A stretch of 37,680 nt of DNA from a virus, in IMG/VR virus record IMGVR_UViG_3300033571_015756, positions 1-37,680 of that record; one strand, given 5' to 3'. The notes beneath the pieces were generated by a model that was given only the letters and a program-made list of their open reading frames with translations, ran no database searches and was not told where the DNA came from. This document shows, piece by piece, positions 8,709 to 21,691 of the stretch; positions within the stretch are counted from its first letter, which is position 1, and every line of letters starts with the position of its first letter. The position numbers and the translations under genes were made by a program.

Positions 8709-8798
8709 TTAGCGCCATGCGTCCCGATTGAGACAGCAAGCAAGGATGAGGACGGCGCCCGCGATCGCGGTTCCGTAGGTCAGAGCGTACAGGATCAC
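8709..8798 (-). CDS. very small membrane protein (29 aa)
   Basis: Begins MILYALTYGTAIAGAVLILA and ends CCLNRDAWR: one membrane segment with a short charged tail. The GTG start overlaps the upstream stop (GTGA), so translation is coupled to the 65-residue gene. It is too short for most gene callers. The topology and overlap support it; nothing else does. Confidence 0.5.
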   Translation of the reverse strand: MILYALTYGTAIAGAVLILACCLNRDAWR

Positions 8799-8992
8799 GG
8801 CGCCACCCTTTCCAAACGAAATTCCGCCGCGGCGCCGCCTCCGATGAAATAAGCGGACCCCGAAGCCAAACTGTCCCGAATGTCCGCGATGTCGAATGCG
8901 TCCAGACTGTCCCGGTTCGCATTCAGAAAGTCGGCTAGCGGACCCCGCCATTGGGAGTCGCCAGTCGCCACGTCATACAGTGCTATATACAT
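8795..8992 (-). CDS. hypothetical phage protein (65 aa)
   Basis: Begins MYIALYDVATGDSQWRGPLA and contains an acidic helix (ADFLNANRDSLDAFDIAD). ATG 8992 is preferred over an in-frame GTG eight codons upstream, because that GTG lies inside hairpin leader copy 5 and AAGGG precedes the ATG. It heads a two-gene unit with the 29-residue membrane protein. Function unknown. Confidence 0.62.
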   Translation of the reverse strand: MYIALYDVATGDSQWRGPLADFLNANRDSLDAFDIADIRDSLASGSAYFIGGGAAAEFRLERVAP

Positions 8993-8998
8993 GTTCCA

Positions 8999-9025
8999 CC
9001 CTTCTAGGGGCGCCACAGCGGCGCC
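8999..9025 (-). promoter_or_regulatory. hairpin leader element, copy 5
   Basis: On the minus strand: GGCGCC-GCTGT-GGCGCC, a six-bp stem with a five-base loop, then CCTAGAAGGG. Upstream, GGCTGTCTGG and TAGCGTGCG boxes recur before copy 6. The 8993-9094 gap holds no gene. Confidence 0.6.
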
Positions 9026-9094
9026 AGACAGCCCAAAGGGACCGCACGCTAGGCGCCGGTCCCAAAGGGCGGGTTGTCCGCGATGGGGCCGGAG

Positions 9095-9328
9095 TCAGGC
9101 GTAATACTTCGCGAGCGCGTCCGCTAAGGACGGAACCCATGGCGTGGCCTCATCATCAAAGCCCCACGTCTCATCATCCCCGTTTAAGTCCATCCAACAC
9201 AAAGCGAAGCCTTCAGCGCGCTGGATCACGAACCCGCCGCAAGCGCATTGCGTCCCCTCGCTCGGGACCGCCACCACGGTGGCAAGAAACCCGTTTGCGT
9301 ATTCGATTTCTTGACCGGTCCGATACAT
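9095..9328 (-). CDS. hypothetical phage protein (77 aa)
   Basis: Begins MYRTGQEIEYANGFLATVVA, a small beta-barrel-like start, followed by CACGGFVIQR and a Trp- and Asp-rich acidic end. ATG 9328 has AAAGGG seven bases upstream; a GTG two codons earlier overlaps the previous stop. It is coupled to the 99-residue gene. Function unknown. Confidence 0.65.
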   Translation of the reverse strand: MYRTGQEIEYANGFLATVVAVPSEGTQCACGGFVIQRAEGFALCWMDLNGDDETWGFDDEATPWVPSLADALAKYYA

Positions 9329-9330
9329 GT

Positions 9331-9630
9331 TCACGCCCTTTGTCCTGTCATGTGTTCCAGAATGTCAACGCAAGCCGCGTGCATCGCTTCCCGGGAAGGA
9401 AACACCCCCACCGGCTCATAACGGGTGCGCTTGTTATAGCGGGGCATCCCGTTAACGATCTCACAGTGAGAAATAACAAGGCGGATACCACCTTGCGCCA
9501 GCGCGTCATATCTGAGGCCCGTGGCATCCTTCAGGCGCCCGAGCGGATCGTTCCGCATTTCAACCGGAATGCGAGATTGAACGAAAGCGGTTTGCGCGCG
9601 CTCTTTCTCAGTGATGAGGGGCGAAAGCAT
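9331..9630 (-). CDS. hypothetical phage protein (99 aa), first gene left of the divergent region
   Basis: Begins MLSPLITEKERAQTAFVQSR. The middle (RLKDATGLRYDALAQGG) is helical and the C-terminal part (VGVFPSREAMHAACVDILEH) looks like a small alpha/beta fold. ATG 9630 is preferred over a GTG nine codons upstream, which lies inside leader copy 6; AAGGGAG precedes the ATG. As the first leftward gene it is likely expressed early. Function unknown. Confidence 0.65.
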   Translation of the reverse strand: MLSPLITEKERAQTAFVQSRIPVEMRNDPLGRLKDATGLRYDALAQGGIRLVISHCEIVNGMPRYNKRTRYEPVGVFPSREAMHAACVDILEHMTGQRA

Positions 9631-9638
9631 TTCAGGAC

Positions 9639-9666
9639 TCCCTTGCAGGTGCGCCACAGTCGGCGA
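9639..9666 (-). promoter_or_regulatory. hairpin leader element, copy 6
   Basis: On the minus strand: CGCC-GACTGT-GGCG stem-loop, then CACCTGCAAGGGAG. The core TGTGGCGCACCT is identical to copy 4. Confidence 0.6.
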
Positions 9667-9671
9667 CTAGC

Positions 9672-9788
9672 CGGACCCTGCCGGACTCTCGGGTAGCAAT
9701 CAAGCCTAAACCGCCAGACAGGCCGACGCACGCTAGAGACGGTCCCGGACAGCGACGGACTCCTTATAGTGGGGACAGACAGACGGAC
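9672..9788 (+). repeat. paired CGGAC boxes around a leftward TATAAG element
   Basis: CGGAC occurs at 9672, 9682, 9746, 9756 and 9784, with GGGAC at 9772. Two pairs are spaced exactly 10 bases, one helical turn. On the minus strand TATAAG (9768-9763) lies between boxes and has no recognisable -35, as expected for an activator-dependent promoter. Confidence 0.45.
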
Positions 9789-9823
9789 AGCTGCCGGAAC
9801 ACGCGGCGCCGTTCTGGAGTCGC

Positions 9824-9855
9824 GGGGAAGGGAAGGGAAGGGAGGGAGGGAGGGG
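9824..9855 (+). other. G-quadruplex-forming tract
   Basis: Seven consecutive runs of three or four G (9824-9827, 9830-9832, 9835-9837, 9840-9842, 9844-9846, 9848-9850, 9852-9855), separated only by AA or A. Four such runs are enough for an intramolecular quadruplex. The tract is also a 32-base pure purine run. Confidence 0.7.
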
Positions 9856-10087
9856 CGCCAGATCACCCGCCGACCTATCGACCGAGTCCCAGCTTCACAG
9901 GCCTGTCAGGCGCCATCAGGACCGGTCTATGGCCTACAGATGCACCCTCGCCCATCCCATGACAGACGCCCCACAGGCCCCTTCCACCCGTAAACCTCAC
10001 AGGCCAGCATGCGCCGTGACAAACGCCCCTGCCGGTCGCCAGCAAACACTAGGGACCGCCTCGCGGCTCCGGTCCGGTCCGGCCTCG

Positions 10088-10099
10088 TCTAGGCCTAGA
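10088..10099. repeat. 12-bp perfect palindrome TCTAGGCCTAGA
   Basis: Perfect dyad about 400 bases upstream of the serine recombinase gene. Half-site-like CTAGGCC also occurs near 10133. It could be an operator or part of a recombination site; there is no direct evidence for either. Confidence 0.4.
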
Positions 10100-10296
10100 G
10101 TGACGCCGCGAACCGGCCCAGACGCGCCGACTAGGCCGACCGACCCCGCCCAGCGCCGACCGGGACGCCGACCATGCGGATTGATAATCCCCCACCTCCA
10201 CAACTCCCCAAAAGAAAAAGGGCTTGGTTTCCTGATCCTGTTATCCTAACGGTGATCTGAGTGTGATCTAACTGGCATACGGGAGATGGGTTGGTT

Positions 10297-10497
10297 ATGG
10301 GCAAGGCTGGACCGAAGAAGGGTGAGTTGGCTGAGTTGAGGACGAGGGTGTTGTGCCTGGTCCAGGAGGTTCGGGATCTTCGTGCGACGGTGGAGATGAT
10401 GACGCCGGCGTATGAGGCGCATCTGAAGAACCGGGAGGGGAGCCGAGAGGCGATGCGGCGGTTGCGGGCTTCAAGGAAGGGGGAGGTTGTTCAGTGA
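10297..10497 (+). CDS. small coiled-coil protein (66 aa) coupled to the recombinase
   Basis: Begins MGKAGPKKGELAELRTRVLC and continues as one long helix (VQEVRDLRATVEMMTPAYEA), ending basic (MRRLRASRKGEVVQ). GGGAG at 10281 lies 11 bases before ATG 10297 and five before an alternative TTG at 10291. The stop overlaps the recombinase start (GTGA), so the two are translated together. The G-rich coding strand differs from the structural genes. It may be an accessory partner of the recombinase; no family was recognised. Confidence 0.62.
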   Translation: MGKAGPKKGELAELRTRVLCLVQEVRDLRATVEMMTPAYEAHLKNREGSREAMRRLRASRKGEVVQ

Positions 10498-11276
10498 CTG
10501 GGAAGATGGTGGGCTATGCCCGGGTGAGTACGACGGATCAGGATCTGACGATCCAGCTGACGGCTTTGGAGAAGGCGGGATGTGATCCGGTGTTCTCGGA
10601 GAAGCGGTCTGGGACGAGCACGGACAAGCGGGTGGAGTTGGCCCGGTGTCTTCAATACCTGCGGGATGGGGACACCCTGGTGGTGGCCAAGGTGGATCGG
10701 CTGGGGCGAAGCCTGGTGGATCTGGCGAAGATCGTGGACGGGCTTCAGCAGCGGGGTGTGAAGTTTCTGTCCCTGGATCAGAACTTCGATGTGGAGACGC
10801 CTGGGGGCAAGGCCATGCTGCAGATGCTGATGGTCTTTGCGGAGCTCGAGAACTCGTTCCGGCGCCAGCGGCAGTCCGAGGGCATTGCCGCGGCGAAGGC
10901 CCGGGGGGTCTACGATAACAGGCGGACGCAGCAGATGCGGTCCCGGCGGGCTTATGGCAAGCGGCTGCTTGAGCAGGGCATGACGTACCAGGAGGCGGCG
11001 GACAAGTGTGGCCTGCACCGCTACACGCTCTACAGGCACTACCCCGAGTTCCGACGGGAGGAGATGCCCGAGGAGGAGGTTCGCAAGCGGGTTGACGGCC
11101 GGAAGAAGCGGAAGGTCGAGCGCGAGGAAGCCGAATTGGAGAAGACCATCAGGGCCGCTCGGAAGGCCGAGAAAAAGGTAGCAGCACCCGTGGTTTCGCC
11201 TGAACCGCCACCCCCTTTACCGCCGGCGAAGAAGACCCTTTGGGGCAAATTATTCCCCTCTACCCCGGGTTCGTGA
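10494..11276 (+). CDS. serine recombinase (resolvase/invertase family) with basic proline-rich tail
   Basis: Site-specific recombinase that cuts through a catalytic serine and joins DNA strands. Residues 6-14 (VGYARVSTT) hold Arg10 and the nucleophile Ser12. KVDRLGRS (66-73) supplies the Asp-Arg and second Arg of the active site. FAELENSFRRQR (115-126) starts the long E helix, and a helix-turn-helix lies at about 155-183 (YQEAADKCGLHRYTLYRHY). Resolvases and invertases are usually about 185-200 residues; this one continues with a charged Lys/Glu-rich and Pro-rich tail to 260. GTG 10494 is favoured by GGGGGAGG seven bases upstream; ATG 10506 is the alternative. It is too short for a large serine integrase. 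Inversion or resolution fits better than integration, but the site is not known. Confidence 0.93.
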   Translation: MTGKMVGYARVSTTDQDLTIQLTALEKAGCDPVFSEKRSGTSTDKRVELARCLQYLRDGDTLVVAKVDRLGRSLVDLAKIVDGLQQRGVKFLSLDQNFDVETPGGKAMLQMLMVFAELENSFRRQRQSEGIAAAKARGVYDNRRTQQMRSRRAYGKRLLEQGMTYQEAADKCGLHRYTLYRHYPEFRREEMPEEEVRKRVDGRKKRKVEREEAELEKTIRAARKAEKKVAAPVVSPEPPPPLPPAKKTLWGKLFPSTPGS

Positions 11277-11323
11277 GGCAAGGTCTTGCTTTCTCGGTCC
11301 TGCAGGAGCAATTCTTGGCACGG

Positions 11324-11390
11324 CCCCGCCCTGCGGGGAGGGCGGTTGTGGTGGGATCGGGGGACAGGCTTGACCGGCCTGTAGGGTCTT
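11324..11390 (+). terminator. two hairpins after the recombinase gene, possible terminator
   Basis: CCCCGC-CCT-GCGGGG (11324-11338) has no T run. ACAGGC-TTGACCG-GCCTGT (11364-11382) is followed by AGGGTCTTTT. The second could act as a weak terminator between the recombinase and the packaging genes. Confidence 0.35.
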
Positions 11391-12074
11391 TTGGCGGATT
11401 TTATTCTTGCGCGGGGCGGGCTGGTCCTGGTGGACAGGGAAGACCTGGACCTCCTCGAGGCCCATGCCCTGACCTGGCGTGTGTGGCGCCATCGCAAGAT
11501 CGCACCGCTCTATGTGGTCCGGGACGAGACCAGCCTCGGCCACCGCTTCCGGGTGATCCTGCATCGATTGGTGGCGGCGCGCATGGAGCCGCGGATGCAG
11601 GACGACCCGATGCGCTTTCGCGTCACGGCAATCAACAGGGACTTCACCGATGTTCGCAGGGAAAATCTGGCGATCTCGTTCGCCTCAAGGGGCTCCGGCC
11701 GACTCCCCATCAACCGCAAACCCCGAGGCTACCGAGCCTACGCCGGCACCCACAGGAGCGCACCCACCGTCTCCAACCCCCTCTGGACAGGGGGAATTGA
11801 GTTCCGCCTTGACCGGAGCCGCAAGCACAAAGGCACACACCTTGGAAACCACCTCCGACCCTACTCCCCAAACCTCGGCACATTTATCGACGGAGCAGCT
11901 GCTGCGGGAGGCGATGAACCGGGAGGCCATCCGGTGGATCAGCGTGCTGGACAACGATCAAAGGGACGCCGAGGGCAACCCGCTGTTCGACTGGAAGGTC
12001 CGCAAGGAGATGTTCCAGATGGCGCAGGACTGGCTGATCCGGTCCCGGAAGCTGTGGCCGCCGGAAGACAATGA
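11391..12074 (+). CDS. degenerate HNH-like homing nuclease frame, C-terminal part uncertain
   Basis: From a TTG at 11391 the first 100 residues follow the plan of phage HNH proteins: LVDREDLDLLEAHALTWRV, then YVVRDE, then VILHRLVAARM, then VTAINRDFTDVRRENLAIS. The last block matches the usual DHIN...LDNRRxNL pattern, but the catalytic His is replaced by Ala, so it is probably inactive. A weak AP2-like stretch (WTGGIEFRLDRSRKHKG) follows. Third-position G/C stays high in this frame to about 11880 and then falls, while the +1 frame of the small terminase gene takes over. The remaining 190 bases to the stop at 12072 therefore look non-coding. It may be a decayed homing gene fused into the start of the packaging operon. 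Confidence 0.5.
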   Translation: MADFILARGGLVLVDREDLDLLEAHALTWRVWRHRKIAPLYVVRDETSLGHRFRVILHRLVAARMEPRMQDDPMRFRVTAINRDFTDVRRENLAISFASRGSGRLPINRKPRGYRAYAGTHRSAPTVSNPLWTGGIEFRLDRSRKHKGTHLGNHLRPYSPNLGTFIDGAAAAGGDEPGGHPVDQRAGQRSKGRRGQPAVRLEGPQGDVPDGAGLADPVPEAVAAGRQ

Positions 12075-12342
12075 CGCCGAGGGCGAGGGCGTCACCAACC
12101 TGCGGGACTGGATGAACAACCCTGAGAACGTCGCCGCCCTGGAGACCATGTTCAAAGCCAGGGGCTGGTTGCCGCCGATCCCAAAGAAGGCGGGACGGCC
12201 GACTAAGGCCGAGGCCGCGGCGCGTCAGACTTTCAAAGAGCAGAAGCAGGCTCTGAAGAATGCCGAGTTCCAAGAGGACGACAGCACCCTGCAGGCCCTC
12301 ATGAAGGGCAAAATCCCGAAGTCCAAGGAGGACGACCAATGA
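11842..12342 (+). CDS. probable terminase small subunit / DNA packaging protein
   Basis: A 166-residue helical protein from a TTG at 11842 (AAAGG eight bases upstream). An ATG at 11650 in the same frame would add 64 Pro/Ser/Thr-rich residues, but those overlap the HNH-like frame where the coding signal belongs to the other frame. Recognisable parts are TEQLLREAMNREAIRWISV, FDWKVRKEMFQMAQDWLIR, MFKARGWLPPIPKKAGRPT and a charged tail. Small terminase subunits bind the packaging site and hand DNA to the large subunit. The call rests on position (three genes before the large terminase), size and helical content; the family was not directly recognised. Confidence 0.62.
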   Translation: METTSDPTPQTSAHLSTEQLLREAMNREAIRWISVLDNDQRDAEGNPLFDWKVRKEMFQMAQDWLIRSRKLWPPEDNDAEGEGVTNLRDWMNNPENVAALETMFKARGWLPPIPKKAGRPTKAEAAARQTFKEQKQALKNAEFQEDDSTLQALMKGKIPKSKEDDQ

Positions 12343-12593
12343 GCAGCTACATGCGTTTCTTCGAGGTGGTGCGGTCGGATGGCGTGACCGTGCGGGTCAA
12401 CGCCAATGCCGTGAGCGCGATCATGGAGACCCAGACCAAGGGTGGTGAAGCCCGGGCCTCGATCATCATGAACAACAACATGACTATCGCCACCCGTGAC
12501 CTGGGCATGCCCGAGGTGTGGGCGCTGTTCGTGGAGGCGGCGGGTCACGCTGTCCACATCGCCCGGGAACCGAACCCGGCCTACGTGGCCTGA
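12339..12593 (+). CDS. small beta-rich phage protein (84 aa), FlbD-like layout
   Basis: Begins MSSYMRFFEVVRSDGVTVRV and continues NANAVSAIMETQ, then RASIIMNNNMTIATRD and EVWALFVEAAG. The order, two strands, Asn-rich turn, strand and Val/Glu-rich helix, is like FlbD-type small proteins. The ATG overlaps the previous stop (ATGA). The gene that follows has the same layout and may be a diverged duplicate. It lies between small and large terminase genes; function unknown. Confidence 0.68.
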   Translation: MSSYMRFFEVVRSDGVTVRVNANAVSAIMETQTKGGEARASIIMNNNMTIATRDLGMPEVWALFVEAAGHAVHIAREPNPAYVA

Positions 12594-12934
12594 TGAGCGG
12601 CTACATCGAAGTCGAGGTGGCGGGCAACCACAAGGCCTACGTCGAGGCTGGCTCCATCGTGGGCGTGATCCACTCCCCTGGGCTCGGTCGCGACGACCAG
12701 GCCACGCCCGACGCTCCGATGACCGTGATCCTCCGGGGGGGCGACAGCCTTGAGAACGTGTATGGGATCAGCCCCTCTATGCTGATCCTCTATGCGACCG
12801 GGTGCCGGTGGGCGCTGCGCTTCAACAAGCGAAAGTTCGGCATGCTCCTGGCGATAGATGCCCGGGCCGACTTCGAGAACACCCTCATGACCCTGCAGCA
12901 GCAGATGGAACTGGAACATGGCCGCGCCCCCTGA
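12593..12934 (+). CDS. phage protein (113 aa), likely paralogue of its neighbour
   Basis: Begins MSGYIEVEVAGNHKAYVEAG and continues SIVGVIHSPGLG, TVILRGGDSLENVYG and an alpha-helical end (DFENTLMTLQQQMELEHG). The start (MSxY, two strands, then a VxA/VEA-SIVGV turn) parallels the preceding protein. The ATG shares one base with the previous stop (TGATG), and the end overlaps the large terminase by 17 bases, so the genes are translationally linked. Function unknown. Confidence 0.7.
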   Translation: MSGYIEVEVAGNHKAYVEAGSIVGVIHSPGLGRDDQATPDAPMTVILRGGDSLENVYGISPSMLILYATGCRWALRFNKRKFGMLLAIDARADFENTLMTLQQQMELEHGRAP

Positions 12935-15758
12935 GCATTGGCTTCCAGCCTTCATGCACTTCATCTCCAAGATCCGCATCACCTCCAAGGAGGCGACGGA
13001 GCCTGTCCCCATCGTCCCCTACGACGCGCAGACGCGGTTCCTTGAAGCGATGGCCTCGGGGCTGCAGGAGGACATCCACCACTTCGTCTGTCTGAAGGCC
13101 CGCCAGCTGGGTATCTCCACGATCCTCCTGGCGCTGGACATCTTCTGGCTGCAGATGTTCCCCGGCCTTCAGGGCGCCCTGATCGCGGACACCGGCGACA
13201 ACAAGGAGACCTTCCGCGAGACCATCACCGAGATGCTGGACAGCCTGCCGGCCGGGTACAAGGTCAAGGTGCGCCGACACAACCGGAACGCCCTGATCCT
13301 GGCCAACGGATCCAGGCTTCAGTACATGAGCGCCGGCAAGGCGGGGAACACGGGCCTCGGCCGATCCCGCGCCCTGAACTTCGTCCACGCGACCGAGTGC
13401 TCCTCATGGAAGGATCAGGTCGGCCTGGACTCCCTGCGCGCCGCCTTGGCCCTTGAGAACCCGAACCGGCTCTACATCTTCGAGAGCACCGCCCTGGGCT
13501 TCAACCTCTTCTACGACATCTACGAGGAGGCGAAGGACAGCGGGATCCAGAAAGCCTTCTTCATCGGCTGGTGGGCCAAGGAGATCTATCGGATTCGAGA
13601 AGGCACCTCGGAGTTCGACCGCTGGTGGAACATCAGCCCCGAACTCACGGACGAAGAAGCCACCCTCACGCAGGAGGTGATGGAGGAATACGGCCACCAG
13701 ATCACACCCGAGCAGTGGGCGTGGTTCCGCCGGGAGTCCTTCAACAAGAGCCAGTCCTCGCTGCACTCCGAGTTTCCGACAACCGAGAGGCTCGCCTGGC
13801 AGTCCACCGGCTTCCCGTTCTTTTCCATGAACCGGGTCAATCAGGATCAGGTCTTCATCCGCAACCAGCGCGTGACCTTCAACGGCTACCGCTACGAGTT
13901 GGGCGAGAAGTTCCTCGCCATGAAGTGCTCTCCGACCACGACCCTGGACGACATCGAACTGCGGGTCTGGGAAGACCCCAAGCCCGACGGCGTTTACGTG
14001 ATGGGCGTCGATCCTGCCTACGGCCGAGACGAGTGGAAGGACCGCTCCGTCATCTCCGTCTGGCGCTGCTACGCCGACAAGATCGTTCAGGTGGCCGAGT
14101 ACGCCACGCCGTGGCCCGAGACCCGCCATGTGGCCTGGGTGATGGCACACCTCGCCGGCTGCTATCGGAACGTGATCATCAACCTTGAGATCACCGGCCC
14201 GGGCGGCAGCGTCATGCAGGAACTCAACTACCTCCGGCAACAGATGCAGTACGGCAAGCTGAAGGAAATCGCGGCCGATCTGAACCCGGAGTGGGCCTTG
14301 GACCAAGCCCGCTGGTTCCTCTACCACCGGGTGGACTCCATGGGCCCGGGGTACATGTACAACTGGAAGTGTCTCGACCTTGAGACTCCTCTTCCCACGC
14401 CCACAGGCTGGACCACGATGGGAAAGGTTCTGGCGGGAGACTGGCTGCTTGACGAGAAGGGCAACCCGACCCGGGTGCTTGGCACGTCTCCGGTCAAGCA
14501 TGGCAGCCCCTGCTATCGCCTGACCTTCGATGATGGTTCGCAGATCGTGGCGGACGAGGAGCACAAGTGGTGCGTCACTCGCAACCATTGGAAGGGCGAG
14601 GAGAAGATCGTCACCACGGTCGATCTGCTCAAGCACGACTACAAGATCAAGATGGCCAAGCCGCTGTCCCTGCCGGAGACCAACCTTCCCGTTGACCCCT
14701 ACGTCCTCGGCGCCTGGCTTGGAGATGGCAGCGCCAACGCTGCCAACCTCACAGCCTCAGAGGCAGACGTTGAAGAGATGGTTGACCTCATGGCGGGTCG
14801 TGGCCTGCCGACCAAGATCCTCAGACACTCCAACCGCGCTCCGACCGCGGCCCTCACTCATCCCAGGGGCCAGCGAGAGGACACCCTGATCCGGCGCCTG
14901 CGAGCGTTGAATGTCTACGGACAGAAGCACATTCCCGCCGCCTATCTCCGCGCCAGCGTGGATCAGAGGCTGGATCTCCTGCGAGGTCTCATGGACACCG
15001 ATGGTGGCCTGAGCGGGAACAACGGCGCCCAGTGCGGCTTCACCACGACATCCGAGCGCATAGCCGAAGGGTTCGCTGAACTGGTCCGCTCCCTCGGCAT
15101 CAAGGCCAAGCGATGCGTCCGCAACCGGACCATCATTTACAAGGGCGAGCAGACCACCTGCCGTTCGGCCTACCAGTTCTGGTTCACCCCGCCCAACGAC
15201 ATGCAGGTCTTCCGGCTATCCCGAAAGGCCCGCAAGCTGGACGAGAACCGCAAGAACGATGGCCGCAAGGCGTACCACCGCATCGTCTCCATAGAGCCTG
15301 TGGAATCCCGCCCGGTGCGCTGTGTGCTGGTGGACAATCCCACCCACCTCTTCCTCGCCGGCGAAAGCATGATCCCGACGCACAACACCAGCGTCGAGAA
15401 CAAGCTGCTCATGCTCAACCGCTTCCGGGACTCCTACAACACCGAGGAGCTCATTGTCCGGTCGCTGCAACTGCTGGACGAGATGATCACCCTGGTTCAG
15501 GAGGGGTCATCCATCCACGCTGCCGGCCGGGGCAAGGACGACCGGGTCATGGGCGCGGCGTTGGCGCACTACGCCTGGGCCGAATGGCAGCGGACCAGCA
15601 TGATGGCCAATGGCGAGACCTTCGATAAGGTCCAGAGCCGCGAGGCCGAGGTCATGAAGGCGGGGCGCCCCGTCATAGATTGGATCGTGCCTCGGCACAT
15701 GGCAGCGGCCGAGGCGGAAGCCAGGCGGCAGGAACTCAAGCGGCTTCTGGAGGAATGA
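12918..15758 (+). CDS. terminase large subunit interrupted by an intein (946-aa precursor)
   Basis: ATP-driven DNA packaging motor and nuclease, docked on the portal. In the extein, the Walker A-like loop is CLKARQLGIS (58-67) and the Walker B-like strand ends in Glu160 (LNFVHATE). The nuclease domain has VMGVDPAYGRDEWKDRSVI (acidic Asp at about 366), VIINLEITGPG (Glu at about 422) and a third acidic site in GKDDRVMGAAL (about 873). Residues 485-823 are an intein, leaving a 607-residue terminase after splicing, a usual size. The frame is intact throughout. Splicing should join NWK to TSVENK within the nuclease domain, so an unspliced protein would probably be inactive. The start at 12918 overlaps the previous gene. 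Confidence 0.95.
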   Translation: MAAPPEHWLPAFMHFISKIRITSKEATEPVPIVPYDAQTRFLEAMASGLQEDIHHFVCLKARQLGISTILLALDIFWLQMFPGLQGALIADTGDNKETFRETITEMLDSLPAGYKVKVRRHNRNALILANGSRLQYMSAGKAGNTGLGRSRALNFVHATECSSWKDQVGLDSLRAALALENPNRLYIFESTALGFNLFYDIYEEAKDSGIQKAFFIGWWAKEIYRIREGTSEFDRWWNISPELTDEEATLTQEVMEEYGHQITPEQWAWFRRESFNKSQSSLHSEFPTTERLAWQSTGFPFFSMNRVNQDQVFIRNQRVTFNGYRYELGEKFLAMKCSPTTTLDDIELRVWEDPKPDGVYVMGVDPAYGRDEWKDRSVISVWRCYADKIVQVAEYATPWPETRHVAWVMAHLAGCYRNVIINLEITGPGGSVMQELNYLRQQMQYGKLKEIAADLNPEWALDQARWFLYHRVDSMGPGYMYNWKCLDLETPLPTPTGWTTMGKVLAGDWLLDEKGNPTRVLGTSPVKHGSPCYRLTFDDGSQIVADEEHKWCVTRNHWKGEEKIVTTVDLLKHDYKIKMAKPLSLPETNLPVDPYVLGAWLGDGSANAANLTASEADVEEMVDLMAGRGLPTKILRHSNRAPTAALTHPRGQREDTLIRRLRALNVYGQKHIPAAYLRASVDQRLDLLRGLMDTDGGLSGNNGAQCGFTTTSERIAEGFAELVRSLGIKAKRCVRNRTIIYKGEQTTCRSAYQFWFTPPNDMQVFRLSRKARKLDENRKNDGRKAYHRIVSIEPVESRPVRCVLVDNPTHLFLAGESMIPTHNTSVENKLLMLNRFRDSYNTEELIVRSLQLLDEMITLVQEGSSIHAAGRGKDDRVMGAALAHYAWAEWQRTSMMANGETFDKVQSREAEVMKAGRPVIDWIVPRHMAAAEAEARRQELKRLLEE
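14370..15386 (+). other. intein with LAGLIDADG homing endonuclease, in the large terminase
   Basis: The 339-residue intein begins with Cys (CLDLETPLPTPTGWTTMGKV). Block B is IVADEEHKW. Endonuclease motifs are LGAWLGDGS and LRGLMDTDGG, a two-motif LAGLIDADG (DOD) type. It ends HLFLAGESMIPTHN with the His-Asn pair, followed by extein Thr. All splicing residues are present. The start and end blocks resemble those of terminase inteins in other tailed phages. The endonuclease should cut intein-free terminase genes and promote spread. Confidence 0.93.
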
Positions 15759-16336
15759 TGCCTGTTACCCGGACCTACCTGTGCGACGACTGCGGCTATC
15801 GCTTCACCCAGTTCCATATGAGCCGAGAGGAGGCGCCGCCGGAATGCCCTGCGTGCTACGCCGCGACCCACAGCATCCCAGGCGGCTTCAACATCACGAC
15901 CAGCAAGGCCAAGGCTGTGGACATGGTGCAGAAGATTGCCGAGGAGGACTACGGCATGACCAACATGCGGGACAACGGCCGTGAGGGCGATGTCGCCGCC
16001 CTGGGCCCGTCTCAGGTCCAGTCGTCCGAGGCTGAGATGCTCACACGCCAGATGATGGCTACGCAGCCTCAGATCAACGAACAGCAGGCCGATCTGGTCA
16101 ACTCGTTCTGGAAGAACAGCATGTCGGGAGCCGCTATCCCCGGCGCCGGAAACCCCAGCCTGACACCGGAGCAGCAGCGCGATCAGATCCTGGCCGCAGG
16201 CGCTGTTGCCTCAAGCCAGGCCACCGGCATGGGCGCCGATCCCATCGGGTTGATCCATGAAGCGGGAAAGCGTGGTATGGCTGACACGCGCCTCGAGGTG
16301 TTGAACCCGAAGGAAACCCGGAGCCTGAAGACGTGA
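15758..16336 (+). CDS. zinc-ribbon phage protein between terminase and portal (192 aa)
   Basis: Begins MPVTRTYLCDDCGYRFTQFH and the N-terminal 40 residues hold two Cys pairs (CDDC, CPAC), a zinc ribbon of the FmdB-like kind. The rest is helical and low in hydrophobics, with QPQINEQQADLVNSFWKNSM and many Gln. It starts at the large terminase stop (ATG 15758; ATG 15755 is an alternative) with GGAGG just upstream. It may be a portal- or packaging-associated accessory protein; this is inferred from position. Confidence 0.72.
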   Translation: MPVTRTYLCDDCGYRFTQFHMSREEAPPECPACYAATHSIPGGFNITTSKAKAVDMVQKIAEEDYGMTNMRDNGREGDVAALGPSQVQSSEAEMLTRQMMATQPQINEQQADLVNSFWKNSMSGAAIPGAGNPSLTPEQQRDQILAAGAVASSQATGMGADPIGLIHEAGKRGMADTRLEVLNPKETRSLKT

Positions 16337-18027
16337 TCATTCCCAAGGACGGCAAGAACCTGGTCCGCTGGACGCAGGAACTGATCGATGAATGCACGGT
16401 GAGCGTGGAGCGCCGCCGTCAGGAGTACAGCACCTGGAAGCAGCTTTTCTACACGGGGTCCACCACCGGGACGCCGTCCAAGCACAACCGCTGCTACTCC
16501 CACATCGACAAGCTGTCGTCCTTCATCTTCTCCCCCACTGACGTGCGCTTCGATCTGGAGTGCGAGAGCGATGACGAGAAGCAGTGGACTGAGCGCCTTG
16601 ACGTGGCGGCGCGCTATCTCAACCGCCAGTTCGTCCGGCAGAAGTGCGACCTCGCTTTCTCCGAAGCCGTCCTGTGGTCCCTGATCAAGGGCAGCACCAT
16701 CATCAAGCAGGTCTGGGGCCGGGGCGGTCTTGAGCCCTGGGTGATCCAGCCTGAGTTCTTTGGTGTGCTGCGCGAGGACATCCCCTCGCTGGATCGGCAG
16801 GACGCCTTCGTCCACACCTTCTACCTGACCCCGACCCAGTTCCGGCGCCTGCTTGGCGAGCGACCGGACAAGGAAGAGATCCTGCGCCAGGCCACGGCCG
16901 GGTTCGCTCCGACGGACTCGGAGGTGACGGGCGAAAGCTACGGCGCAGACATGGTCACAGCTGGATCTGCGTCTATCCCCGGCATCCTCCTGCCAGGCCA
17001 GCAGGGCCAGCAGCAGCGAGGCGCTGTGGACTGGATCACCAATCCGGCCGGTCCCATGCTGGCTCAGGGCGTGGCCAACCAGCTGATCCGCGTGGACGAC
17101 CTCTGGGTCATGGACGATGATCGCGAGGACTGGACAACCATCCGCTACGTCGCACCAGACCTGATCATCGAGGGCCGCTATCGCCGGCGGAACCTGTCCG
17201 ACATTCCAGGATCTCACCCGTTCGTGCGGGTCTGCTCCTCCGAGGTGCCGAACTATTTCTGGGGCCGATCCGAACTGGCCAACGTCTACGAGAACCAGAA
17301 GCTGCTGACCGCCCGGGTCAACAACCTGGACGCCATGTTCAACCTGATCGCCAAGCCCGCCCGTTCCTTCCGCGGCTTCAGCGGCCTGACTGAAGACAAG
17401 GCGCGAGCCCTGCTGTCGCCTGGCGGCATCCTCACCGACCCGTCTCCGACTGGCGAGATCAAGGATCTGGCGCCCACCATCCCGCCCGGGGCGATGGAGT
17501 ACATCAACACCCTGGACAGCTGGTTCAACGAGGCGGCGGGTTTCACCGCCATCATGCAGGGCCAGGGCGAACCCGGGGTCCGCGCCGGATCCCACGCCGA
17601 CACCCTGCTGCGAACCTCCTCGCCCCGTCTTCGCACCCGCGCCCTCATAGTGGAGAAGCAGGTAGCCGACTTCGGGGAGATCTGCCTGAAGATGCTTCAG
17701 ACCAAGGACGCCAGGATCCTGATGGCCGGCACAGACAATGCCTTCCTCTTGGACACCCTGCCCGAGGATCTCGAGGTCACGGTGGACAGCCACACCTCGT
17801 CCCCCGCATTCTCCGGCGACAACGCCAACATGGCCATGGCGCTGAAGCGGGCCGGAGCCATCGACGACGAGACGCTGATTGAGATGATGCACCCGCCCCG
17901 CCAGGATCGGCTGGTCGCCCGGGTCAAGGCGCGGGAAGACGCACAATCCCAGCAGATGCAGGAACTCAAGAAGCTGGACCCCGAACAGTGGGCAAAGGCC
18001 GTGTCAGGTGGCGGCCGCAAGCGATAG
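16333..18027 (+). CDS. portal protein (head-tail connector)
   Basis: Forms the dodecameric ring at the capsid vertex through which DNA enters and leaves and to which the terminase docks. 564 residues, in the normal podovirus size range. It begins MIIPKDGKNLVRWTQELIDE, has a long helical stem, ESYGADMVTAGSASIP in the middle and many portal-like helices (ENQKLLTARVNNLDAMFNL) before an acidic C-terminal part (KAREDAQSQQMQELKKLD). GTG 16333 overlaps the previous stop. Placement directly after terminase and before scaffold and capsid genes supports the call. Confidence 0.85.
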   Translation: MIIPKDGKNLVRWTQELIDECTVSVERRRQEYSTWKQLFYTGSTTGTPSKHNRCYSHIDKLSSFIFSPTDVRFDLECESDDEKQWTERLDVAARYLNRQFVRQKCDLAFSEAVLWSLIKGSTIIKQVWGRGGLEPWVIQPEFFGVLREDIPSLDRQDAFVHTFYLTPTQFRRLLGERPDKEEILRQATAGFAPTDSEVTGESYGADMVTAGSASIPGILLPGQQGQQQRGAVDWITNPAGPMLAQGVANQLIRVDDLWVMDDDREDWTTIRYVAPDLIIEGRYRRRNLSDIPGSHPFVRVCSSEVPNYFWGRSELANVYENQKLLTARVNNLDAMFNLIAKPARSFRGFSGLTEDKARALLSPGGILTDPSPTGEIKDLAPTIPPGAMEYINTLDSWFNEAAGFTAIMQGQGEPGVRAGSHADTLLRTSSPRLRTRALIVEKQVADFGEICLKMLQTKDARILMAGTDNAFLLDTLPEDLEVTVDSHTSSPAFSGDNANMAMALKRAGAIDDETLIEMMHPPRQDRLVARVKAREDAQSQQMQELKKLDPEQWAKAVSGGGRKR

Positions 18028-18034
18028 ATAAAAT

Positions 18035-18058
18035 AGGGCGGTCTGGACGGATCGCCCT
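18035..18058 (+). terminator. hairpin after the portal gene, possible terminator
   Basis: AGGGCGGTC pairs with GATCGCCCT (one G-T pair), loop TGGACG, then TTTC. A second hairpin (CAGGAC and GTCCTG) lies at 18105-18121. The T run is short, so this may be a partial terminator or a processing site. Confidence 0.4.
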
Positions 18059-18134
18059 TTCACCGCCTCATAATTCCCTCTCCACGTGATGCGGTAGCAG
18101 GGGTCAGGACAAGAAGTCCTGTAAAATGAGGGCG

Positions 18135-18162
18135 TTGACGAAATCTTCTAGTGCGCTGTATT
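18135..18162 (+). promoter_or_regulatory. candidate promoter before the scaffold and capsid genes
   Basis: TTGACG (18135-18140), a 16-base spacer and TGTATT (18157-18162). Five of six -35 bases and four of six -10 bases match. About 95 bases of leader follow, with two possible hairpins (GGTTCC with GGAACC; ACGTG with CACGT) before the strong ribosome site at 18248. Confidence 0.45.
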
Positions 18163-18259
18163 CCTCTTGTTGCCTGAGGTTCCTTGTCCCAACCGGGAAC
18201 CGACGGCTCTCCCCGACGTGGCAATCCCGTCACGTTGTAGCGGTTCAGGAGGTGGTCCC

Positions 18260-18292
18260 ATGGCCCGTAAGCGCAAGTCCCGCCGGAAGTAA
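18260..18292 (+). CDS. basic micro-ORF MARKRKSRRK (10 aa)
   Basis: Eleven codons including the stop, directly behind AGGAGGT six bases upstream, one of the best ribosome sites in the window. The product is nearly all Lys and Arg and matches the micro-ORF at 5374 (MAKRKSKRC). It ends 25 bases before the next gene. It is either a real micro-peptide or a regulatory leader for the scaffold-capsid genes. Confidence 0.5.
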   Translation: MARKRKSRRK

Positions 18293-18317
18293 CTCCGGCT
18301 CACCACAGGGTGAATCC

Positions 18318-18734
18318 ATGCCTCCCTTGCCTATGATGATGCCGCCTATGGGATCTGCGGGTCCAGCCAGTCCCCCGACTGCAAACCCCGGAGCCATGGC
18401 CGACTCTATGTCAAAGGTGAGGGAGGCAATCCACCTCCTGGAACTTGCACTGCCTGGCCTGGCGATTGGCAGCGAGCCCCACTCTGCGGTGGTGAAGGCC
18501 CTGCCAGGACTGTCCAAGGCTGTTCCTGCCACTGAAGCGGTGAGCGGCGTACAGAACACCCAACTCCTCGCGCTCCAGCAGCGGGCTCAACAGAGCGCCG
18601 CGATGCAGGCCGTGATGCGAGCCATGGGCGGCGGCGCTGGTGGTCCCCCTGGGGGTCCTGGCGCACCTCCCGGTCCCCCTGGTCCGATGGGCGGCGCTAT
18701 GCCTCCCCCCGGCGCTCAACCCCCGATGATGTAG
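18318..18734 (+). CDS. Pro/Met/Gly-rich virion-region protein (138 aa)
   Basis: Begins MPPLPMMMPPMGSAGPASPP. The middle (SMSKVREAIHLLELALPG to QQRAQQSAAMQAVMRAM) is helical, and both ends are low-complexity, the last 35 residues being Gly/Pro-rich (PPGGPGAPPGPPGPMGGAMP). AGGGTG lies six bases before the ATG at 18318; the open frame extends upstream to 18126, but that part lacks a ribosome site. It lies between portal and scaffold genes, as in other podoviruses with similar Pro-rich proteins. Minor virion or scaffold helper is a guess. Confidence 0.68.
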   Translation: MPPLPMMMPPMGSAGPASPPTANPGAMADSMSKVREAIHLLELALPGLAIGSEPHSAVVKALPGLSKAVPATEAVSGVQNTQLLALQQRAQQSAAMQAVMRAMGGGAGGPPGGPGAPPGPPGPMGGAMPPPGAQPPMM

Positions 18735-18743
18735 GAGGCCCTC

Positions 18744-18923
18744 ATGGCCCAAAACGGTACCCCCATCTTCACCCCGCCGATGAACTCCCTGATCAAGGAA
18801 GACCCGCAGATCGTGCGCGTCCCCCTCGACTACACCGAGTTCGGCGCCCGTCCGTCCAGCGTGAACGCTGCGGACTTCAAGTCGAACATCTTCCCCGTTC
18901 GGAACCTCCCGAACGGTCAGTAA
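18744..18923 (+). CDS. small virion-region protein (59 aa)
   Basis: Begins MAQNGTPIFTPPMNSLIKED and continues PQIVRVPLDYTEFGARPSSV, ending NIFPVRNLPNGQ. AGGAGG lies seven bases before the ATG. It is too short for standard cutoffs but has a strong ribosome site and good codon use. It sits between the Pro/Met-rich protein and the scaffold, so a small capsid or head component is likely. Confidence 0.72.
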   Translation: MAQNGTPIFTPPMNSLIKEDPQIVRVPLDYTEFGARPSSVNAADFKSNIFPVRNLPNGQ

Positions 18924-18962
18924 TCCTCTCGCACCCCAACCCTCCACGACAGGTTAGGAACC

Positions 18963-19544
18963 ATGGCTCAGATCCCCGACGACCAACTTGATGCGCTCCT
19001 GAAAGCGGCCCAGCTTCTGCAGACCCTGCAGGCGAACCCGCATGCGCTCGTCCACCTGGAGAACTCGATCAAGGCGGTGAACCCGAACGTCGAGACCTCT
19101 GCAGAGATCGCGGCGCGTCAGGCGAAGCCCCTGATCGATCCCATCCAGCAGAGGCTGGACGAGGTCACTCAGAAGCTGGAAGACCGGATCAGGGCCGAGG
19201 ACGAGCGCGAGGCGTCCACAAGGACCGCTCTCGCTGAGTCGCACCTGTCTTCAACCTTCAAGCGCCTGCAGGAGCAGGACGGCTACACGGCCGAAGGGAT
19301 CGAGAAGATCAAGGAGCTGATGGTCAACAGGAACATCGCGGACCCCGATGCGGCCGCGGCCCTGTTTGACCGAATGAATCCCCCGAAGCAGGAACAGGCT
19401 GCGTGGGAACCCCAACGGTGGAACCTCGAAGAGAACGCCATCGAAGGGGATGTGAAGAGCCTCTTCTCGGACCCGGACAAATGGGCCGACAACACCGTGG
19501 GCCAGGTGCTCCTTGACGAGCGCCGCCGGTCCTCCTCCGAATGA
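18963..19544 (+). CDS. scaffolding protein
   Basis: Acts as an internal template for capsid assembly and leaves before packaging. A highly charged, helical 193-residue protein: LDALLKAAQLLQTLQ near the start, then a long coiled coil (DEVTQKLEDRIRAEDEREAS), and an acidic C-terminal region rich in Glu and Asp. TAGGAACC precedes the ATG. It is located directly before the major capsid gene, the standard scaffold position. Called on position and composition. Confidence 0.75.
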   Translation: MAQIPDDQLDALLKAAQLLQTLQANPHALVHLENSIKAVNPNVETSAEIAARQAKPLIDPIQQRLDEVTQKLEDRIRAEDEREASTRTALAESHLSSTFKRLQEQDGYTAEGIEKIKELMVNRNIADPDAAAALFDRMNPPKQEQAAWEPQRWNLEENAIEGDVKSLFSDPDKWADNTVGQVLLDERRRSSSE

Positions 19545-19561
19545 TCAGAAGGAAGTAGATA

Positions 19562-20578
19562 ATGGTTTCGCCGGTTTACGGAACGGGTGTCGTCCCCAAT
19601 CAGGGCGCGATCACCAACGAACTCAACGCCGTCACCCGGCGGGCCTTTGTGCCGAAGATGGTGGTGCAGATCTACAAGGCTGCTCCTCTCCTTAACGCGT
19701 GCCTTCGCAACGCGCAGCGGGCCAAGGGCGGTCTGTCCCAGATTTCGGTTCCGGTTCAGGGCTCGTCCTTCGTGTCCTTCAACTGGGCCGGCTACTCGGG
19801 TTCGTTCCCGCAGCCGACCGTGGCCAACGCCGCCCAGACCGCAGGCTTCAACCTGTCAGTCGGCACCGTTCCCGTCCCGCTCCTGGGGATGGAGAGCATG
19901 GTTCAGTCCAGCGAGGCCATCATCCCGCTGGTGAAGGCCCGTATGGCGGACGCCACCACCGTGGCCATCCAGTCCATCGCGACTTCGCTCTTCTCCTCGT
20001 CGGGCGCCGACCCGCTAGCCGTCAACGGTCTCCTGGATGTCTACGACGACGGCACCTCGGTGGCCAACTACGGCGGCATCAGCCGGACCACGAACACCTT
20101 CTGGAAAGCCACCAAGTACACCACCTCCATCACGCCCACCCGGTCGAACATGATCACCCGGATCATGCAGACCACGTCGGCCGCTGGCGGTGACTCCCCG
20201 GACCTCGTCGTCATGTCCCTGGGCGATTGGTGCACCCTGCTGACGGACTTCATGCTCATCGAGCAGTTCAACACCGGCCCGAACAGCCGCTACGGCAACG
20301 ACGACGCCGTCAACGCTGGCTTCCGGTGCCTGATGCTCGGCAACACCCCGATCATCGCGGACCCCTTCTGCCCGAACGGCAAGGCGTTCGTCATCAACAC
20401 GAAGTACCTGGCCCTCTACCTCTCCGAGTACGCCAACTTCGCCTGGTCCGGCTTCCACAGCCTGATCCCCAACAACCAGCTGGCGAGCGTCGGCGTTGTC
20501 ATCATCGGTCTGGCCCTGGCCTGCACCAAGCCCTCCACGGGGATGCAACTGTCGAACGTCAACGGCGCCGCGTTCTAA
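19562..20578 (+). CDS. major capsid protein
   Basis: Main shell protein, 338 residues, HK97-like fold expected. Begins MVSPVYGTGVVPNQGAITNE and has VPVQGSSFVSFNWAGYSGS, then an alpha-helical spine (SSEAIIPLVKARMADATTV), a domain ending in the hydrophobic strand LASVGVVIIGLALACTKPST, and a C-terminal QLSNVNGAAF. AAGGAAG lies six bases before the ATG. The position after scaffold, the size and the codon use fit. HK97 fold is established for such proteins in general and inferred here. Confidence 0.85.
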   Translation: MVSPVYGTGVVPNQGAITNELNAVTRRAFVPKMVVQIYKAAPLLNACLRNAQRAKGGLSQISVPVQGSSFVSFNWAGYSGSFPQPTVANAAQTAGFNLSVGTVPVPLLGMESMVQSSEAIIPLVKARMADATTVAIQSIATSLFSSSGADPLAVNGLLDVYDDGTSVANYGGISRTTNTFWKATKYTTSITPTRSNMITRIMQTTSAAGGDSPDLVVMSLGDWCTLLTDFMLIEQFNTGPNSRYGNDDAVNAGFRCLMLGNTPIIADPFCPNGKAFVINTKYLALYLSEYANFAWSGFHSLIPNNQLASVGVVIIGLALACTKPSTGMQLSNVNGAAF

Positions 20579-20602
20579 TTCGGCCACACAAGGACACCCG
20601 AC

Positions 20603-21691
20603 ATGGCTATCACCCTTCAGAGCGGCGCGGGCATCGGCCTGGTCACCAAGCCGCTGGCTGGCAACAACAACTTCCTCTCGCTTCCGGCGGGTCAGGTCTA
20701 CACGGTCCCGGCCGGTCAGTACTACATCGACACCGGCGCCTACCTGCAGATCCAGACCCTGGATCCGATCAGCGGCATCTGGCGCGAACTGACCGGCGTC
20801 GGCACGGACAAGATCACCTTCGTCAACAGCGACGGCGTCAACGTCCGGGTGGCCAACCTGACTGGCTGCCCCATCGGCTCCATCGTCACCAACGTCGGAT
20901 CGGGCTACACCTCGGCCCCGGTGGTCACGGCCTCGGCCGGTAGTTCGACCTGGCGGGCCATCGTCGGCGGCGCGATCAACACCTCGGTCACGATCACGAC
21001 AGCTGGCTCGGGCTACACCTATCCGCCTCAGGTCATCTTCGACGCCCCGCCCGCCGGTGGTGTCCAAGCCACGGCGACCTGCACCATCTCGGGCGGCGCG
21101 ATCAACGCCGTGACTGTGGTGAACCAGGGCGCGGGTTATCTCGTGGTCCCGAGCATCACCATCGTCAACGACCCCCGCGATGCGACTGGCACCGGCGGCA
21201 AGCTGACCCCGGCCCTGACCGGCTCTGGCACGGTCACTGCGGTCCTCTGCACCGATCACGGCACCCCGCTGACTTCGGTTCCGACCCTGTCCTTCTCGGG
21301 CGGCGGCGGCGCTTCGGCGGCGGCTACGGTGGCCATGTGCTTCACTACCACCGGCTTCACGGTTGGCTCGGGCGGCACGGCCTACGGCAACGCCCAGCCC
21401 TTCCTGGTGCAGGCTGTCGGCGGCATCGTCTCGGCCACGGCCGGCGCGGTGGTCAACCCGCAGCTCTCCGTGAACCGCCTCACCCCTCGCATGGGCGTGC
21501 ACACCGGCACCACGACCGCTGGTGGCGCCATTCAGGCCACGGGTGCGGTGATTCAGGACGGTGGTCTGTTCCAAGCGGTGCCGATCGGCATCGTCACGGC
21601 GGGCGGTTCGGCTCTGGCCACGGCTGTCGGTCAGGTCACCATGACCGTGGGCGGCGTGACGGACACCTTCATGATCCAGCCCTTCGCCTGA
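20603..21691 (+). CDS. capsid decoration-type virion protein with GxGY repeats (362 aa)
   Basis: Begins MAITLQSGAGIGLVTKPLAG. From about residue 98 it has a repeated beta unit with GSGY or GAGY (residues 98, 134, 175), about 36-41 residues apart, of the type NxGSGYTSAPxVT, plus one degenerate copy (LTSVPTLSFSGGGG). The C-terminal part is Gly/Thr/Ala/Val-rich. AAGGAC lies nine bases before the ATG. It follows the capsid gene and precedes a strong terminator, so a capsid decoration or minor capsid role is likely. Related repeats occur in the next two virion proteins. Confidence 0.7.
   Translation: MAITLQSGAGIGLVTKPLAGNNNFLSLPAGQVYTVPAGQYYIDTGAYLQIQTLDPISGIWRELTGVGTDKITFVNSDGVNVRVANLTGCPIGSIVTNVGSGYTSAPVVTASAGSSTWRAIVGGAINTSVTITTAGSGYTYPPQVIFDAPPAGGVQATATCTISGGAINAVTVVNQGAGYLVVPSITIVNDPRDATGTGGKLTPALTGSGTVTAVLCTDHGTPLTSVPTLSFSGGGGASAAATVAMCFTTTGFTVGSGGTAYGNAQPFLVQAVGGIVSATAGAVVNPQLSVNRLTPRMGVHTGTTTAGGAIQATGAVIQDGGLFQAVPIGIVTAGGSALATAVGQVTMTVGGVTDTFMIQPFA

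Follow-up and report, generated by a model that had tools for sequence, protein, structure and literature searches.

A class 3-like intein with a LAGLIDADG homing endonuclease in the nuclease domain of a viral large terminase

Background

Inteins have been described in the large terminase subunits (TerL) of phages, which form the closest described setting for the intein analysed here, found at positions 14370-15386 of the virus record IMGVR_UViG_3300033571_015756; the window, that is, the whole stretch of DNA analysed, is the entire record of 37,680 bases. The mycobacteriophage inteins TerL1-a to -e and TerL6-f likewise sit in large terminases, some with a LAGLIDADG endonuclease, and TerL1-c and -e have been grouped with class 3; these six and Pham3880-g make up the seven terminase-type sites of that study, every one of them in the ATPase domain (PMC5050341), whereas the site in the window lies in the nuclease domain, between its second and third conserved acids. 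From phage isolates we used 20 intein loci (8 from among the top rows and 12 out of 760 matching records sampled as a 60-row spread), and in 18/18 TerL-type genes, with hosts annotated as TerL or judged by us to be TerL and with the ends of L268 poorly read, the insertion falls at 9-36% of the extein; L273, which is not terminase-like, and L275, an unannotated, TerL-looking gene with its intein about 100 residues in, were left out of this count. The window junction, at 484 of 607, is thus not in the ATPase half, where these TerL intein sites lie.

The second TerL intein of cyanophage Mic1 also lies in the TerL nuclease domain (PMC7156551; MN013189), a precedent that rules out the window intein as the first in that domain. 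In our own reading the Mic1 sequence runs ...QQDHL/C...LVSN/CDALRYV (slashes mark splice junctions), placing a 146-residue intein with Cys at +1 near the third acid; the two TerLs do not align by BLAST and the insertion places are compared by motif only. A BLAST comparison of the window intein with this Mic1 intein gave no match, and its sole weak match in Mic1 is to the other intein of that phage (E 7e-5, 19% identity).

Outside terminases, the class 3 inteins of mycobacterial DnaB-1 (6rix, 6riy, 6bs8) share the fold and the spacing of the class 3 triad of Trp, Cys and Thr (WCT), with His65 and Trp67 (PMC5222942), but they are mini-inteins without an endonuclease, begin with Ala1 (PMC7664689) and reside in a helicase, whereas the window intein has both Cys1 and an endonuclease. 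The closest lineage, besides the inteins at the same terL site, is that of the P22-type portal inteins, which occupy another host gene and begin with Pro in 9/19 and Cys in 2/19; these and all later counts over inteins are among the matches listed in our searches. PI-SceI, the yeast VMA intein, of class 1, has the same architecture of a Hint domain with a LAGLIDADG endonuclease, at about 15% identity in structural alignment. Compared with these systems the window intein stands out for its new insertion site, mixed class features and unexpected relatives, in a domain that itself has a precedent; the open-access literature that we searched yielded no description of this terL site or of its link to portal genes. 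We consider it quite probable that a mobile intein carrying its own LAGLIDADG homing endonuclease interrupts the nuclease domain of TerL, a packaging protein that is essential, splices by the class 3 route, spreads by homing and belongs to a lineage of packaging-gene inteins.

Results and discussion

Anatomy of the intein

The element is a real, well-bounded intein, as the following features in the window (all on the + strand) make plain.

12918-15758, +: terL precursor gene, a large terminase with an intein, 946 residues (open reading frame; phrog_2 terminase; T4 gp17 fold, judged on the intein-free allele of contig L002)
12918-14369, +: N-extein, comprising the ATPase domain and the first part of the nuclease domain, ending ...MYNWK (empty-site alignment)
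14370-15386, +: intein of 339 residues (precursor residues 485-823), a Hint splicing domain with an inserted LAGLIDADG homing endonuclease; class 3-like (WCT) with Cys1
14370-14372, +: Cys1, an N-terminal residue of class 1 type (codon checked)
14562-14570, +: block B, His65-x-Trp67, the Trp being the W of WCT; the numbering equals His65/Trp67 of Msm DnaB-1 (PMC5222942)
14706-14729, +: first LAGLIDADG motif, LGAWLGDG, residues 113-120, with Asp119 (codon checked)
14976-15005, +: second LAGLIDADG motif, LLRGLMDTDG, residues 203-212, with Asp211 (codon checked)
15321-15323, +: Cys318, block F position 4, the C of WCT and proposed initiating nucleophile; invariant in 37 aligned inteins
15378-15386, +: Thr337-His338-Asn339, block G; Thr is the T of WCT, and Asn would cyclise (alignment; codons checked)
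15387-15755, +: C-extein, the rest of the nuclease domain, starting with Thr+1 (empty-site alignment; conservation of residue 485)
14010-14012, +: nuclease acid 1, Asp365
14187-14189, +: nuclease acid 2, Glu424
15537-15539, +: nuclease acid 3, Asp535 of the spliced protein (precursor residue 874); all three acids are conserved columns aligned with T4 gp17

The junctions read ...MGPGYMYNWK/CLDLETPLPTPTGW ... LFLAGESMIPTHN/TSVENKLLM..., and blocks A, B, F and G, the terminal Asn and a Cys, Ser or Thr at +1 are all in place. The original prediction, made from the letters alone, had proposed a complete intein with all splicing residues and both LAGLIDADG motifs, and it holds at the level of single codons: Cys1, His65 (block B), Cys318 (block F), His338-Asn339 and Thr+1 are present, and each LAGLIDADG motif ends in its catalytic acid. 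Pfam recognises the endonuclease (LAGLIDADG_3 3e-9, Hom_end 1.2e-5), and Intein_splicing scores only 0.0089, short of its curated cut-off. A structure model of the intein (pLDDT 93.9) matches PI-SceI (E 1.5e-20) and the class 3 mycobacterial DnaB inteins 6rix, 6riy and 6bs8 (TM 0.86-0.91 on target), and the best sequence matches with a solved structure are again class 3 DnaB inteins (4.4e-30).

The host reading frame is a terminase large subunit by PHROG profiles, the three best matches covering the insert and phrog_2 the extein, while Pfam Terminase_6N reaches only 0.0085, short of its cut-off. An AlphaFold model of the intein-free L002 TerL (pLDDT 83, pTM 0.61) matches T4 gp17 (E 3.8e-22) and the G20c nuclease (Z 20.7, root-mean-square deviation 2.1, 180 aligned), so the predicted fold is that of a T4 gp17-like large terminase with an ATPase and an RNase H-like nuclease domain. 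The G+C content of the intein (62.6%) nearly equals that of the exteins (62.7 and 64.2%), and at third positions it is lower (80% vs 90 and 86%).

A natural empty site and the position in the nuclease domain

Searching with the two exteins joined identified virus contig IMGVR_UViG_3300032331_002823 (L002), whose TerL is 98% identical to that of the window and lacks the intein. The joined 607-residue extein aligns end to end with the 607-residue L002 protein, all 607/607 residues colinear and 15 different, and the DNA absent from L002 is exactly 14370-15386, or 1,017 bases; the extein DNA differs at 67/1,821 bases. Removal of the in-frame insert thus restores a continuous terminase, and insertion after NWK with Thr at +1 stands as first proposed; that the flanks fail to join into one protein, the outcome that would have undone the proposal, is ruled out. 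Window and L002 are 95.8% identical over 9692-14369 and 97.5% over 15384-20755, and since both flanks are alike we regard them as one phage type with and without the intein. Identity beside the junction is like that in the rest of the gene, with no co-conversion signal evident, and no intein match was returned from the 13.6-kb L002 record in a search that had no positive control. Neither L097 nor the L098-L103 group, which are outgroups to the window and L002, has the intein, and this makes gain in the window lineage likelier than loss in L002, though without proof. The two near-identical phages differ strongly at 8780-9692 (L002 928-1776), where L002 has a RadC-like gene (1.6e-44) on the minus strand and the window has other sequence.

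The bond interrupted follows residue 484 of 607 and lies between Glu424 and Asp535, as conserved columns and profile alignment with T4 gp17 place it, in keeping with the predicted insertion into the nuclease half between the second and third acids. The alignment sets the bond opposite GMK/QTKRTK of T4 gp17, the nuclease pieces being weak when taken singly, and Asp365, Glu424 and Asp535 we take to be the counterparts of the catalytic acids of gp17. In the L002 model the bond falls between a strand (480-483) and a helix (487-502).

A TerL survey with a profile built from six TerLs (80 virus loci, the best of 593, and 12 genome loci, some of them near copies) found the site uninterrupted in 91/92 loci; L182 alone has an intein there, its TerL match ending at residue 484 where the intein starts. 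The ranking favours uninterrupted genes, and 1/92 is no estimate of intein frequency. In the 90 loci that gave an unbroken reading no residue is inserted at the bond; residue 485 is Thr in 88/90 and Ser in 2/90, and residue 483 is Trp in 64/90.

Class signature

The class 3 triad is complete, with Trp67 (B:12), Cys318 (F:4) and Thr337 (G:5), and it stands alongside Cys1. The Cys or Ser at position 1 that marks class 1 is therefore present, while block B position 7, three residues before His65, is Asp62 in place of the class 1 Thr; class 3 inteins, for their part, are described as lacking a Cys or Ser nucleophile at position 1 (PMC5050341, PMC7664689), and such a nucleophile is not required in them (PMC5222942). 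Since Cys1 contravenes that definition, we call the intein class 3-like: it probably works as class 3 inteins do, but we do not file it as a textbook member. Asp instead of the class 1 Thr in block B argues that Cys1 is probably not the essential nucleophile. The triad and the kinship described below, which mark the intein as class 3-like, were missed in the original prediction. The combination of Cys1 with WCT may not be new in itself; Tori and Perler reportedly widened the class 3 definition in 2011, possibly to inteins with Cys1 or Ser1.

For comparison we assembled 176 distinct inteins, the window's included, from three intein-profile scans of virus contigs and further fetched loci, each scan keeping 80 loci, the best of at least 600 matches, so that the sample is centred on the window intein. 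Trp is present in 176, Cys F:4 in 176 (accepted within one residue of its expected place; in L004 it is shifted by one) and Thr G:5 in 175. Cys1 occurs in 6/7 distinct inteins at this terL site (L182 has Asp) vs 6/169 others, counts that are not independent of descent; the others divide into 2/19 in P22-type portals (the near copies L027 and L028), 0/4 at other sites of loci matching this TerL and 4/146 elsewhere. On two domain trees with 11 Cys1 rows, Cys1 requires 7 and 8 changes and so seems to come and go. Position 1 tracks the insertion site, being Ala in 89/107 inteins after an end in GK, AK or SK, most often Pro in portals and Cys at the terL nuclease site.

We regard as unlikely the alternative that this is an ordinary class 1 intein in which the first thioester forms at Cys1 and Cys318 plays no part. 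The presence of Cys1, as in class 1 inteins, here and in most inteins of the site, speaks for it, as does the existence of class 1 inteins with Cys at F:4 (PMC3196547), and both points count against the class 3-like assignment. The full triad and Asp at block B position 7 tell the other way, as do the nearest relatives outside this site, most of which have Ala, Pro, Leu, His or Asp as first residue, the grouping of the intein with WCT inteins apart from three non-WCT ones, and L182, whose Asp1 at the same bond indicates that Cys1 is not needed for occupancy.

Kinship with portal and second-site inteins

The P22-type portal inteins number 19 distinct sequences, two of them near copies; the host gene of L021 is a P22 portal by Pfam (1.3e-164), to which the other 18 were linked by BLAST. 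The L002 phage has a portal-like gene of a different type, matching SU10_portal at only 0.002, whose counterpart in the window lies at 16333-18027. A second terL site was observed in L033 (2140-3150) and L199 (3131-4153), in the same TerL family, where the intein interrupts RLYIWES/T or SIYIYES/T; this is probably the ATPase coupling motif, and both inteins fall in the same intein lineage. In L205 (858-2057 and downstream) a gene has an intein with Cys1 and WCT after ...GSTK, and a further intein, without WCT, seems to lie in its C-extein (CVTADTLITMADG...LITHN, 362 residues).

A 70-intein tree (7 from this site, 15 from portals, 2 from the second terL site, 4 others with Cys1 and 42 hand-chosen from the remainder), from which position 1 was left out and whose bootstrap had not settled, places the seven of this site on one side of a branch (90/80), groups the portal and second-site inteins (99/97) and unites these 24 inteins (100/99). 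In the endonuclease-domain tree (59 rows) the 23-row terminase/portal set is one clade (96). A 39-row tree adds three non-WCT inteins with very long branches, both of those in Mic1 and the second in L205. It separates them from the 36 WCT inteins, that of the window among them (86/81), although no characterised class 3 intein is among the rows of these trees, and it gives 83/87 to the terminase/portal set and 99/95 to the portal and second-site inteins. A shared lineage of terminase and portal inteins is thus fairly well supported by these trees, most clearly in the endonuclease. The finer structure goes against the picture from the 70-row tree: the seven inteins of this site need 2 changes in the endonuclease-domain tree, 3 in the splicing-domain tree, where the terminase/portal set also needs 3, and 2 in the 39-row tree, where they form one group in 14% of bootstrap trees. 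The seven as a single group, holding in the 70-row tree and failing in the two domain trees and the 39-row tree, is weakened accordingly; the apparent branching order among terminase and portal inteins is less certain, and the terminase inteins may form a single branch or the stock out of which the portal inteins arose.

The sites themselves are alike, MYNWK/TS in terL and, for example, MYNYW/TS in portals, and ten bases, ATGTACAACT, starting 15 bases before the bond, are common to the window and portal L210. A matrix built on 14 of the 15 portal sites then known, without the near copy L028, places the true window site at 2/3590, 2/3572, 4/3602 and 1/3560 at four flank lengths. With 15/12 flanks its performance on other terL sites is uneven, from 9/3968 (L189) to 2489/3860 (L017), and second-site TerL inteins are poorly predicted (701/3824 and 44/3770); leaving one out, the held-out portal site ranks first in 10/14 cases with portal matrices and the held-out terL site in 7/7 with terL matrices. 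Control matrices with shifted positions, run at two flank lengths, reach ranks 3, 3 and 4 vs the true 2 at 15/12 (140 shifts, some overlapping the true site) and 1, 1 and 2 vs the true 2 at 21/15, and over all seven terL genes shifts ranking as low number 1/70 and 3/70, which lowers the window-site result to roughly the 1-4% level.

Recognition of a shared portal/terL target is weakened by shifted matrices that do nearly as well and by the uneven terL ranks, and the similarity of the target sequences is only suggestive, a further point against the reading that we favour. Portal proteins are the docking place of packaging motors, and one could imagine a homing lineage specialised on packaging genes that hops between portal and terL through a shared target, with Cys1 regained or kept at the terL nuclease site and either nucleophile able to start splicing there; we think this rather improbable, but if true it would mean an endonuclease target common to two genes whose products touch.

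Distribution, homing and proposed mechanism

A quick tree of 64 TerLs requires 6 changes to account for the seven carriers, starred branches forcing every one of them, and with 83 of 500 label shuffles giving as low a number the carriers show no clear clustering. In 18/21 pairs the inteins are more alike than the exteins (the exceptions are window-L189, L017-L197 and L197-L201), and intein identity, at 42-53%, hardly tracks extein identity at 32-54%. The scattered carriers over the TerL tree, as expected of homing, suggest together with this contrast and the empty site a pattern of homing. An old insertion inherited vertically and lost many times, in place of repeated homing, would account for the single bond and the close intein kinship that all seven share, but the two sets of identities fit it poorly, as do the intein-free loci of the survey (a best-scoring sample that favours uninterrupted genes), and we hold it to be very unlikely.

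Under the mobile class 3-like reading, the 946-residue precursor would be translated and its Hint domain would fold, whereupon Cys318, activated by His65 and Thr337, would attack the Lys484-Cys1 peptide bond. The N-extein would then be transferred to Thr+1, Asn339 would cyclise, and an unmarked 607-residue terminase would result, with Cys1 probably dispensable throughout. The excised intein would keep its endonuclease and could cut intein-free terL alleles of co-infecting phages, for which the near-identical L002 phage offers a ready cleavage substrate; repair from the intein-bearing copy would spread the intein. With its closest kin at the same terL bond, in P22-type portals and at the second terL site, one endonuclease lineage seems to have colonised packaging genes. 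This reading is tempered in that we infer splicing, the order of nucleophiles, DNA cleavage and homing from sequence, and in that in L182 the first LAGLIDADG motif has Asn in place of Asp, so that not every copy need be active.

Alternatively, the intein might no longer be mobile and might persist through splicing alone, or because it switches the packaging nuclease in response to redox state or the timing of infection. Its position between conserved acids of that nuclease would suit such a role, and comparable roles have been proposed for a DnaB intein as a stress sensor (PMC6195587) and for both TerL inteins of Mic1 (PMC7156551); both LAGLIDADG aspartates of the window intein are intact, though, and presence in one and absence in another near-identical phage, along with the scattered carriers, suggest recent mobility, and we judge this alternative as a whole improbable.

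Other homing-type and neighbouring genes

The original prediction counted three homing-type elements in about 15 kb, two of them within or next to the packaging genes. The intein and an HNH gene remain of the three, and the intein alone of the two; the third candidate falls short of its cut-off.

588-1139, -: HNH/Endonuclease_7 gene (Pfam 1.3e-23), just 5' of the C5 cytosine methyltransferase
1-591, -: C5 cytosine methyltransferase (1.7e-40), running off the window end
11391-12074, +: possible degenerate HNH gene (HNH_3 E 0.04, as a fragment 0.028, short of the curated cut-off)

Its place as an established HNH gene is unsupported by these values. Within the HNH reading frame at 588-1139 the start of the methyltransferase, IYGSVCSGIEA, is encoded a second time with different codons (25/36 bases alike, window 1070-1035), and the HNH gene is perhaps a homing gene inserted near that start with a recoded duplicate; a search for repeats of 15 bases at this gene listed nothing, though the encoded repeat is present. 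The 11391-12074 gene overlaps an open reading frame at 11650-12342 which, as a guess from position only, may encode the small terminase subunit. Upstream of the packaging genes, at 10494-11276 (+), lies a serine recombinase/DNA invertase (Resolvase 2.4e-41, phrog_125 2.4e-60).

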